Origin: Phycisphaerae bacterium
Lineage (GTDB): Bacteria; Planctomycetota; Phycisphaerae; Tepidisphaerales; Tepidisphaeraceae
Direction of reading: 5' to 3'
Length of the DNA stretch: 32,484 nucleotides
NCBI GenBank assembly: GCA_014379105.1
Contig: JACMML010000095.1
Span: 1-32,484 of the forward strand
Made by a program: the position numbers and the translations under genes. Within the stretch, counting starts at the first letter, position 1, and each line of letters starts with the position of its first letter. The notes beneath the pieces were generated by a model. It was not told where the DNA came from and searched no databases. It saw nothing but the letters and a program-made list of their open reading frames with translations. Of this stretch, positions 6,957-10,173 are shown in pieces.

Positions 6957-6992
6957 GAGCCGCCAACAGTTTTCCAGTGAGTGATTAGCGTT

Positions 6993-8291
6993 ATGCAACG
7001 TCTGCTTCTGATCGGTCTCAACCACACCACCGCCCCGCTTGAGGTGCGCGAGAAGCTGGCGTTTGCGCCGCAGCAGACGCTGTTCGCGCTGGCGGAACTG
7101 CAGAAGCGTCTTGACCATTGCGAGGCCGTCATCCTCAGCACCTGCAACCGGGTGGAACTTTATCTCGCCGGCCCGGCGCACATTGATCGCAACCGCGTCG
7201 TGCAGTTTCTCGCCGATTTCCACGACCTGCCGGAACACATCTTCGCGCCGCACCTCTACGAACTGCGCGGCCGGGTGGTGATCGAGCACCTGCTGTCGGT
7301 CGCCTCCAGCCTCGATTCAATGGTGCTCGGCGAAACGCAAATCCTCGGCCAGGTACGCCAGGCGTACGAGACATCACGTAGCGCCAATGCGACGGGTTCG
7401 CTGCTGAATCCGCTGTTTCAGCGCGCGGTGTCAGTGGGCCGTGAAGTGCTGACGCACACGCAGTTGGCCGAGGGGCGCGTCAGCGTTGCCAGCGTGGCTG
7501 CGGATTACGCGCGGCGCATCTTCGACCGGTTCGACGATAAAACCGTTCTCTGCGTCGGCACCGGGAAAATGACGCAGCTCGTACTGCAGAATTTCATTTC
7601 CCTCAGCGCCGGAAAACTGGTGGTCTGCAGCCGCGTACAGGAGCGCGCCGACGAGATCGCCCGCAAGTTCGGCGGCCGCGGCGTGGCGTTTTCTGAGATC
7701 GAACAACAACTGGTCGCCAGCGATATCGTCATCACGTCCACCGGCGCGCCGCACCCGATCATCACGCGCAAGCGCTTTGAAGGCCTGCTCAAGCAGCGCC
7801 GCTACCGGCCGATCTTCATCATCGATATCGCGGTGCCGCGCGATGTTGAGGCCAGCGTCGGCGATCTGGAAAACGTCTACCTCTACAATCTTGACGATCT
7901 GCAGGAGGTCGTGGGCAAAACCCTCAGCCTGCGCAGCGAGGCGGTCGAGCAGGCGCAGGTGATCGTGAGCCGGCACGTCGACGCGTTCCTGCAATGGCAC
8001 CGCCAGCGCGAAATCGGCCCGCTGATTGACGCGCTCTACAAGCGATACAACGAAATAGCCCGCGCCGAGTTAGAGCGGGCGACGGCACGGATGGAACTGG
8101 ACAGCGCCCAGCGCCAGCAGTTGGAGGAGGCGGTGCATCGCATGGTGCAGAAGATGCTGCATGACCCGGTCAGCCGGCTGCGCGAATCGCCCGAGCCCCA
8201 CGGGGTGAATACGGCGTACGTGCATGCGATCGAGCAACTGTTTAAGCTCGACCCGCAACCGACGGAGCGTGCGCCCGATGAGCAAACCTGA
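6993..8291 (+). CDS. hemA: Glutamyl-tRNA reductase
   Basis: A 432-residue cytosolic enzyme that reduces glutamyl-tRNA(Glu) with NADPH to glutamate-1-semialdehyde, the first committed step of C5-pathway tetrapyrrole synthesis. GLNHTTAPLEVREKL opens the catalytic domain; ILSTCNRVELYL holds the nucleophilic Cys (~51); SLDSMVLGETQILGQVRQAY is the family signature; VLCVGTGKMTQL starts the NADPH-binding domain; IIDIAVPRDVEASVG follows; the helical dimerisation domain runs to the end. The ATG at 6993 was chosen because proteins of the family begin directly with the LLLIGLNHTT strand; a GTG at 6981 is an in-frame alternative. It is the third gene of a compact operon and its 3' end overlaps the next gene by 14 nt. 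Confidence 0.97.
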   Translation: MQRLLLIGLNHTTAPLEVREKLAFAPQQTLFALAELQKRLDHCEAVILSTCNRVELYLAGPAHIDRNRVVQFLADFHDLPEHIFAPHLYELRGRVVIEHLLSVASSLDSMVLGETQILGQVRQAYETSRSANATGSLLNPLFQRAVSVGREVLTHTQLAEGRVSVASVAADYARRIFDRFDDKTVLCVGTGKMTQLVLQNFISLSAGKLVVCSRVQERADEIARKFGGRGVAFSEIEQQLVASDIVITSTGAPHPIITRKRFEGLLKQRRYRPIFIIDIAVPRDVEASVGDLENVYLYNLDDLQEVVGKTLSLRSEAVEQAQVIVSRHVDAFLQWHRQREIGPLIDALYKRYNEIARAELERATARMELDSAQRQQLEEAVHRMVQKMLHDPVSRLRESPEPHGVNTAYVHAIEQLFKLDPQPTERAPDEQT

Positions 8292-10173
8292 CACGCGACA
8301 ATCGCCGAACCGATGGCTCGGGCCTGCCGTCGCGATTGCACTTGTCGGCGCGGTGATTTTCCTGTTATGCGGCGGCTCGACGATCGTCGTCATCGCGTGG
8401 GCGCTGACGGATATTCCAATGGTCTGCGCGTGGCTGATCGCCGGGGCTGGGTATGGCCAGCTGGTTGTGCGCCCTCGAGATACGCTGCTGGGTTGGGTGA
8501 CCAAAGCCTCAGTTGGCATCGGTGCGATGGGGCTGTTGTTTCATGTAATGGGATTAGCGGGGCTGCTCGGGCGCATCTCGGTGATCACGATCGTCGCCGG
8601 CGGGATGGTGATTGCGATCGTTAAGTTCTTCCTGTGCCACGGGCTTCCAGCCCGTGATGCGGTTAGTAAACACGGGCTGGAAGCCCGTGCCACAGGACAT
8701 ACCTGGATCGCCTGGCTCGTACTGTCTCTGCCTCTGGGCATCGCAATTGTGTGCGCGTCGATCGCGCCGGGGCTTCTGTGGAATCCGCTCGATCCGCATC
8801 CGTACGATGTGATGTCGTATCACCTTCAGGTCCCGCGCGAATGGTACGACGCCGGGCGCATCATCCCGCTGACGCACAACGCCTTCAGCTTCTTTCCGAT
8901 GCTGATGGAGACGCATTACCTCGCGGCCATGCACGTGATGGGCGGGCCGTGGCGGGGGATGTACGTCTGCCAGTTCGTCTCCGTCGCCCACGGCGCACTG
9001 GCGGTGCTGGCGGTGGCGGGGGTGCTATTGGAGATGAAGGTTTCGCGCGCCACCGCGTGGTCGGGCGCGGTGATGACCGCGGGTGTGCCGTGGACGCTCA
9101 TGCTGTCGACCGTCTGTTACGTCGAATCCGGCGTGATGCTCTACACCGCACTCGCAGCCGGCTGGGCGATCATCGCGATGCGTGACGGCAAAGGATTTTG
9201 GCTCGCCGGCGCGTGCGCGGGACTGGCGTGTGGAATGAAATACACCGTGCTGGCGATGACGCTGGCGCCGATCTGCGGCGCGCTGTTGTCGATCGGTTTG
9301 ATCCGGCGGCAGAAATCGTGGATGCGCGGCGCCGTTCAGATCGGGATCGTGGCGATCGTGATCGCTGCGCCCTGGTTCATCCGCAATGCAGTATGGACGG
9401 GCAACCCGGTCTTCCCGCTGATGACCGGCGCGTTTGACCGGGCGCATTTCACTGAAGCGCAAGTCGACCGCTATGCCGCCGCTCATCGCCCGCCGGCCGC
9501 CGAGGCGGGGGCTGGACAGCGCCTGTCCGCCGGCTGGTCGCGTACGATCGCCGACCCGCAGTTTGGGTATCTCCTGCTTCCGGTCACCGCGATAGCCGGG
9601 GCGCTGATGATCAAGCGCCGCGATCCGGGCGCGGCGGCGCTGATCGGCATCATTGCGATGATGGCTGGGGTATGGTTATTCGCGACACATGTCGCGCCGC
9701 GATTCATCACGCCGCTCATCCCACTGGCCGCGATCCTCATCTGCCTAGCTGCTATGCATGCGCCTCGCGCGGGGCGCATCGCCGTCATCGCGGTTGCGGC
9801 GTTGCAGTTGTCGATCGGAATGAAGTGGCTGCTGCGCGAGTTGCAGGGCCCGCTGGAGTTCGCAAAGTTCGGATTGTTTCACGCGGACTACCTCTCGCTT
9901 GGCGAGCCACCGGATATCACCCAGGCTCGCGCCGCCGGGCAGACCGTGGCGCTGATCGGGGAGTCGCAGGCTTTCTACTACGTGTTGCCGTCACGGCAGC
10001 TCATTTATCGCAGCGTGTTTGACGTGAACATTCCGCCGGGCGTTTCCACCGAAGACGGCTGGCTCGGGGAGAGTGTTGAATCGCTCCGCGCCCGGGGGAT
10101 TCATGTCGTGATCAATCGGGACGAGCTCGAGCGGCTGTCACGGACGTACAGACATCTGGGTCAAAATCGATAA
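8278..10173 (+). CDS. Polytopic membrane protein, PMT/ArnT-like glycosyltransferase family
   Basis: A 631-residue protein with roughly twelve hydrophobic segments and a short soluble C-terminal part. The loop with DPHPYDVMSYHLQVPREWYD (after ~residue 175) resembles the first periplasmic loop of GT-C enzymes (dolichol-phosphate-mannose mannosyltransferase/ArnT type), where an acidic residue followed by YHL is conserved. ACAGLACGMKYT and APWFIRNAVWTGNPVFPL are also typical of that group. The substrate is unknown. The ATG at 8278 lies inside the hemA 3' end (14-nt overlap), implying coupled translation, although no link to heme is evident. Residues ~118-140 (LCHGLPARDAVSKHGLEARAT) are encoded by an inserted double-hairpin element that falls between two membrane segments and keeps the frame. 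Confidence 0.8.
   Translation: MSKPDTRQSPNRWLGPAVAIALVGAVIFLLCGGSTIVVIAWALTDIPMVCAWLIAGAGYGQLVVRPRDTLLGWVTKASVGIGAMGLLFHVMGLAGLLGRISVITIVAGGMVIAIVKFFLCHGLPARDAVSKHGLEARATGHTWIAWLVLSLPLGIAIVCASIAPGLLWNPLDPHPYDVMSYHLQVPREWYDAGRIIPLTHNAFSFFPMLMETHYLAAMHVMGGPWRGMYVCQFVSVAHGALAVLAVAGVLLEMKVSRATAWSGAVMTAGVPWTLMLSTVCYVESGVMLYTALAAGWAIIAMRDGKGFWLAGACAGLACGMKYTVLAMTLAPICGALLSIGLIRRQKSWMRGAVQIGIVAIVIAAPWFIRNAVWTGNPVFPLMTGAFDRAHFTEAQVDRYAAAHRPPAAEAGAGQRLSAGWSRTIADPQFGYLLLPVTAIAGALMIKRRDPGAAALIGIIAMMAGVWLFATHVAPRFITPLIPLAAILICLAAMHAPRAGRIAVIAVAALQLSIGMKWLLRELQGPLEFAKFGLFHADYLSLGEPPDITQARAAGQTVALIGESQAFYYVLPSRQLIYRSVFDVNIPPGVSTEDGWLGESVESLRARGIHVVINRDELERLSRTYRHLGQNR
8631..8696. repeat. REPIN-like double-hairpin element inserted in frame
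   Basis: Two 26-nt arms (8631-8656 and 8671-8696) are inverted copies with one mismatch, separated by 14 nt. Each arm is itself a hairpin: CACGGGCT-TCC-AGCCCGTG on the left and its inverse on the right. This is the architecture of a REP doublet (REPIN). The total length of 66 bp is exactly 22 codons, and all three bases-per-codon phasing of the host gene is kept. From memory, the CACGGGCTGGAAGCCCGTG core recurs in planctomycete genomes, but I could not check this here. Confidence 0.85.

Follow-up and report, generated by a model that had tools for sequence, protein, structure and literature searches.

REPINs have been described with a RAYT (REP-associated tyrosine transposase) in Pseudomonas fluorescens SBW25, where the REP feet of groups I and II are GTGG and GTGA (Bertels and Rainey 2011, PMC3116915). 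Intragenic REPs of the GTAG/CGTC type that lie in frame, with dimers coding for 20–30 residues and dnaE2 among their hosts, were described in 2013, and planctomycetes carry REPs (PMC3733652). An older precedent for palindromic selfish DNA in frame in functional protein genes is that of the Rickettsia palindromic elements (RPEs) (PMC10969869, PMC3733652), and enterobacterial small mobile sequences of 103–168 bp, which are MITE-like, also occur within genes and add residues to proteins (Delihas 2007, PMC2759123).

The element considered here lies in a window of 32,484 nucleotides (the whole stretch of DNA analysed), which is contig C198 of a 4.0 Mb draft genome of a Phycisphaerae bacterium of the family Tepidisphaeraceae (419 contigs, 81% complete). 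It resembles the SBW25 REPINs in being an inverted doublet of short palindromes that forms a single-strand hairpin, in its dispersed and mostly extragenic distribution, in the GTGG/GTGA feet and in a RAYT flanked by the same REP, here in a sister genome. It differs from them in core sequence, in that a few copies are intragenic and in frame, and in that the cognate RAYT was not found in the organism's own draft genome. Like the GTAG/CGTC REPs, the element of the window forms a dimer inside a genuine gene, is free of stop codons and keeps the frame (PMC3733652); unlike them, its foot is GTGG/GTGA, the orthologue alignment shows a loss of native loop beyond any lengthening, and relatives carry a whole RAYT in frame. 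The RPEs are about 150 bp long and belong to another phylum, no RAYT link is reported for them in PMC10969869 or PMC3733652, and the likeness drawn here is one of behaviour. The elements of Delihas 2007 are similar in contributing residues to a protein and, in the part of that report available, are described without REP doublet anatomy (PMC2759123). The element itself is therefore of a known type, in-frame REPs having already been published (PMC3733652; RPEs). The features of the locus are as follows.

8278–10173, + strand: host gene for a 631-residue multi-pass membrane protein; intact open frame, weak GT-C-type (ArnT/ALG9-like) fold match
8572–8640, + strand: predicted helix of residues 99–121, before the REP loop, its final residues REP-coded
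8630–8697: inverted repeat at its full extent, 4 bp beyond the element on each side, matching by extension
8634–8693: REPIN (inverted REP doublet), 60 bp or 20 codons, touching host residues 119–139
8634–8656, − strand: left REP unit, tag plus palindrome, reading GTGC CACGGGCTTCCAGCCCGTG on the + strand; tag GTGG with one change
8657–8670: spacer atgcggttagtaaa, 14 nt, open in the host frame
8671–8693, + strand: right REP unit CACGGGCTGGAAGCCCGTGCCAC, identical to the consensus
8695–8757, + strand: predicted helix of residues 140–160, after the REP loop (AlphaFold2 model)

The inverted arms (8630–8656 and 8671–8697) are 27 nt each, 96% complementary and separated by 14 nt, and both arms also self-fold as hairpins. 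The DNA folding energy of the whole element is −33.9 kcal/mol on the + strand and −37.6 kcal/mol on the − strand, with fold z values of −10.4 and −11.6, respectively. A first-pass annotation of this DNA had recognized the inverted arms and the hairpin within each, but its length of 66 bp or 22 codons does not hold: because the element was aligned to the consensus of its genomic siblings it is placed at 8634–8693 (60 bp, 20 codons), and the extra bases in the 66-bp span are flank that chances to lengthen the inverted repeat. Over the 46 arm positions the window copy differs from the genomic consensus by one base, whereas the host protein shares only about 50% identity with its nearest relative. 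The core gives four matches in the window (two sites, each on both strands), located only at this element, with 0.02 expected by chance, while an Rfam search of the window returned no match.

Counting the core across the genome, as had been suggested, revealed that it is not unique and that its identification as a REPIN, an inverted doublet belonging to a dispersed family, is sound. There are 30 exact copies of the core CACGGGCTGGAAGCCCGTG (none of the reversed control) and 105 half-elements with a CCAC foot at up to three mismatches (control, none); their surroundings contain at least 40 inverted doublets and 24 further sites where the partner is degenerate or absent. The consensus of the 40 doublets is GTGGCAYGGGCTTCCAGCCCRTG-N(3-27)-CAYGGGCTGGAAGCCCRTGCCAC, with one outlier of longer spacer. 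Doublets are mostly 57–68 bp long, most commonly 60–62 bp, and their spacers are mostly 11–22 nt and A/T-rich (36% GC). Almost all of the 80 arms have the CCAC/GTGG foot, which is neither GTAG nor CGTC. Stem positions 3 and 17 covary between C-G and T-A (47 C with 47 G, 31 T with 33 A over the 80 arms), and the hairpin is therefore what is kept. All six frames of the consensus arms are free of stop codons; since about half of shuffled arms share this property, it is permissive and reflects no special adaptation. The presence of this REP varies between genera.

This family is mostly extragenic, as REP doublets normally are: with the reading frame and codon usage of the two flanks as the guide, 2 of the 64 sites are intragenic, that of the window and another in purH. 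Several other frames that span REPINs in this genome were rejected as hosts on their non-coding codon use, and a further candidate (L138, G000:C370) was rejected because its frame connects sucC with the gene before it by way of a REPIN that is intergenic. At that locus the REPIN lies immediately upstream of sucC, a single open frame taking in the preceding gene, the REPIN and sucC.

Relatives of the host protein occur in each of the 26 family genomes examined. Pfam has no family for it, and its sole NCBIfam match, LIC_10190, is below the cut-off. An AlphaFold2 model built on 23 sequences has a pTM of 0.92, and the best fold matches of the model belong to GT-C glycosyltransferases, ArnT and ALG9 among them; with TM-scores of 0.37–0.48 on the query, these make the host function a lead only. 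Apart from residues 125–137, all of them REP-coded, no interior part of the model falls below a pLDDT of 50; these residues lie between helices 99–121 and 140–160. The open frame and the predicted transmembrane helices on either side confirm the earlier placement of the element in frame between two hydrophobic segments. The frame upstream (window 6981–8291) overlaps the start of the host gene and by eye looks like hemA (glutamyl-tRNA reductase).

Alignment of the orthologues alters the interpretation of the insertion. The first-pass annotation had supposed that they would lack the 22 residues and that the repeat had added a new loop; instead, every full-length orthologue has a loop at the REP site, of variable length and unrelated sequence. 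Measured from the conserved GLAG to PGxLW, the window protein has 72 residues and its nearest relative, to which it is about 50% identical, has 65, within an overall range of 61–73; the net gain over that relative is thus about seven. Without its 20 REP-coded residues the window loop would be 52 residues long, below that of any orthologue, which argues that the repeat took the native loop's place, and insertion without native loss would require an ancestral loop nine residues shorter than any seen. A simple insertion adding 22 residues is thus ruled out by the orthologue loop lengths. Judged from these alignments, the REPIN replaced or displaced native loop residues, either at insertion or through later trimming. 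Orthologues that shared the loop sequence with other codons would have pointed to selection on the peptide; their loops being unrelated, the comparison supports the view that DNA, not peptide, is what is conserved in the element. The nearest orthologue is too distant to date the insertion, and a scan of contigs for a closer relative yielded distant planctomycetes only.

Copies in frame in other genes were found in the same genome and in G023, a complete single-contig genome of the same family with 85 exact cores, where the doublets are mostly 98–108 bp long with the foot GTGA:

L005, G000:C47:12802–12850: second in-frame REPIN of the window's own genome, in purH, 49 bp, coding (C)GMGFQPMIHGLEARA(T)
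L170, L160 and L191, G023: in-frame copies in carB, a dnaE2-like polymerase gene and an HpnN-like RND transporter gene

The purH host matches NCBIfam PurH with 703 bits (cut-off 402). Its REPIN-containing loop has 52 residues, compared with 45–56 in orthologues and 45 in the nearest, and the REPIN stretch is disordered in the PurH model too (378–388). At the carB site of G023, 87 residues lie between two aligned blocks that are separated by 11 in E. coli CarB. The reading frame of the REP differs by host, giving HGLEARAT, GMGFQPM or TGWKPV, and a literature search for REP-coded peptides, covering papers outside subscription journals, found none. Two other long frames that span REPINs in G023 (L151 and L184) were rejected as hosts, being antisense frames. 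The dnaE2-like protein also contains further repeat-like insert peptides (RHEGTEARRHEG, PSCLRASVPP), which look like another repeat family.

A search for the RAYT, also suggested at the outset, gave a divided answer: no RAYT bordered by this REP turned up in the organism's own draft genome (81% complete), while the same core flanks a RAYT in the sister genome G023. The one own-genome RAYT above the NCBIfam cut-off (C196; L144:3297–3996) is bordered on both sides by GTAG-tagged REP units (GTAGCGGCCGCCGTCCCGGCGGC) of a second REP family, and is ruled out as the mobilizer of the window's REP because it carries that different family. A second match is weak and at a contig end (C347), with no inverted repeats nearby. 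In G023 the window's core is located, inverted, on both sides of a RAYT that has no gene of its own and lies in frame inside a DinG/YoaA helicase gene (935 residues).

We consider it very probable that the element is a REPIN that was copied by a RAYT-type process, entered the gene recently and in frame at a variable loop, cost the protein native residues and codes for a peptide that is tolerated. The two inverted GTGG-tagged REP hairpins make up a non-autonomous element, for whose copying a RAYT-type single-strand transposase is presumably responsible. The copy seems to have entered recently at a hypervariable loop between two transmembrane helices, which is probably cytoplasmic. It persisted because a length divisible by three, arms that are stop-free in six frames and a spacer that is open in the host's reading frame let translation continue across it. 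Native loop residues were lost at the time of the insertion or later, which left the net gain of about seven, and the REP-coded peptide is most likely tolerated and not selected. An origin of the palindrome at this site by chance or by peptide selection, with no mobile insertion, has next to no probability: 105 genomic relatives share the tag and doublet geometry against none in the control, orthologues have no similar residues, and the window and genome counts rule out a chance palindrome.

Two other explanations deserve more weight. The in-frame REPIN might have acquired a use, in that its loop or an mRNA hairpin alters the membrane protein, or the expression of that protein, and selection keeps it. 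The hairpin is indeed very stable, and the many in-frame REPs in repair and replication genes suggest non-random retention (PMC3733652), but the REP-coded residues are predicted to be disordered, the loop is conserved in no orthologue, the DNA is still a near-perfect match to the mobile consensus, and the frame read varies by host such that no common peptide is favoured. We therefore regard such a use as unlikely. Less probable still, and very doubtful, is an assembly artefact in which the draft was misjoined at the repeat or loop sequence was lost there. Short inverted repeats are difficult for short-read assembly, the genome is in 419 contigs and 81% complete, and loss of native residues would follow naturally from such an error; however, the flanks belong to one orthologous gene with order and frame correct, and in-frame copies also occur in the complete single-contig genome G023.

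The RAYT inside the helicase gene of G023 has counterparts in the family, all at one site, and in other genes from genomes of the same class:

L173/L238 (G023), L239 (G022), L240 (G027), L241 (G010): RAYT guests in dinG/yoaA, with complete RAYT domain, at one common site, REP-bounded
L242 (G028), L243 (G005), L252 (G003): RAYT guests in dinG/yoaA, with complete RAYT domain, REP-bounded, at the same site as that of G023
L201, L269, L270 (G013, G334, G350): RAYT guests in valS
L268, L273, L274 (G356, G466, G474): RAYT guests in leuS
L272 (G475): RAYT guest in ileS
L202 (G014), L275 (G490): RAYT guests in purH
L271 (G463): RAYT guest in gcvP
L203, L206 (G004, G009): RAYT guests in DUF1156 genes

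The dinG loop was compared between SATLxTG and GSPF across the genomes of the family. It is empty (41–77 residues) in 13 genomes, including that of the window, contains REP peptides only in two (98–99 residues), and contains a REP-RAYT guest in G005, G010, G022, G023, G027 and G028, where the motifs are 282–299 residues apart; in G003 the guest case is divided between two contigs. In three dinG cases the flanking REP is the abundant REP of that genome (the TTCCA type in G023, 85 copies; CATGGGCGTCTCGCCCATG in G022, 337 copies of the pattern; the CGTCCCG type in G010, 78 copies of the pattern), the other type being rare or absent in each. The profile for REP-associated tyrosine transposases (NF047646, cut-off 80 bits) is exceeded by nine guests and missed by three (P0002, 65 bits; L201, 64.3 bits; L203, 76 bits), and the purH guest of G014 (L202) has no NF047646 listing and was found with Pfam Y1_Tnp. 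The dinG guest aligns to TnpA-REP 4er8 across the HUH motif and the C-terminal part. Misassembly does not account for these guests, as G014 is a one-contig genome and the contig with the gcvP guest is 3.4 Mb long. The guests group together in a tree of 57 RAYT domains, requiring 6 changes compared with 17.7 for shuffled labels, in a sample that was partly picked for long frames and is biased accordingly.

We tentatively propose, as a reading with somewhat less than an even chance of being right, that RAYTs and REPINs of this planctomycete class live in frame in housekeeping genes, where stop-free REP-RAYT-REP units in dinG, valS, leuS, ileS, purH or gcvP would be translated as guest domains and spread REPINs, some of which, the window's copy among them, would again land in frame. 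The link from the guest RAYTs to the window copy runs through the core sequence shared with the sister genome and not through an own-genome RAYT. Such residence would be similar in logic to that of inteins and of other elements living in essential genes, with no splicing. A literature search for RAYT guests within genes, covering papers outside subscription journals, found no report. A study of the RAYT superfamily dropped proteins that were longer than expected, taking them for fused genes or faulty annotation (PMC6006769), and such guests may have gone unnoticed through that discarding. A RAYT in frame within dinG, valS, leuS, ileS, purH and gcvP is the less expected part of these results, and the replacement of loops also differs from earlier reports.

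The window element provides a clean, testable case of selfish DNA turning into protein, in which models and alignments show the site, the displaced loop and the tolerance of the host. Within a single family, the same site of the dinG loop occurs in three states, namely empty, with REP alone and with REP-RAYT-REP. The broader pattern carries more weight than the single element: if a transposase can live in frame in an aminoacyl-tRNA synthetase or a helicase, this would explain its protection from loss, its expression would depend on the host gene, and such residence would offer a route for new domains into essential enzymes.
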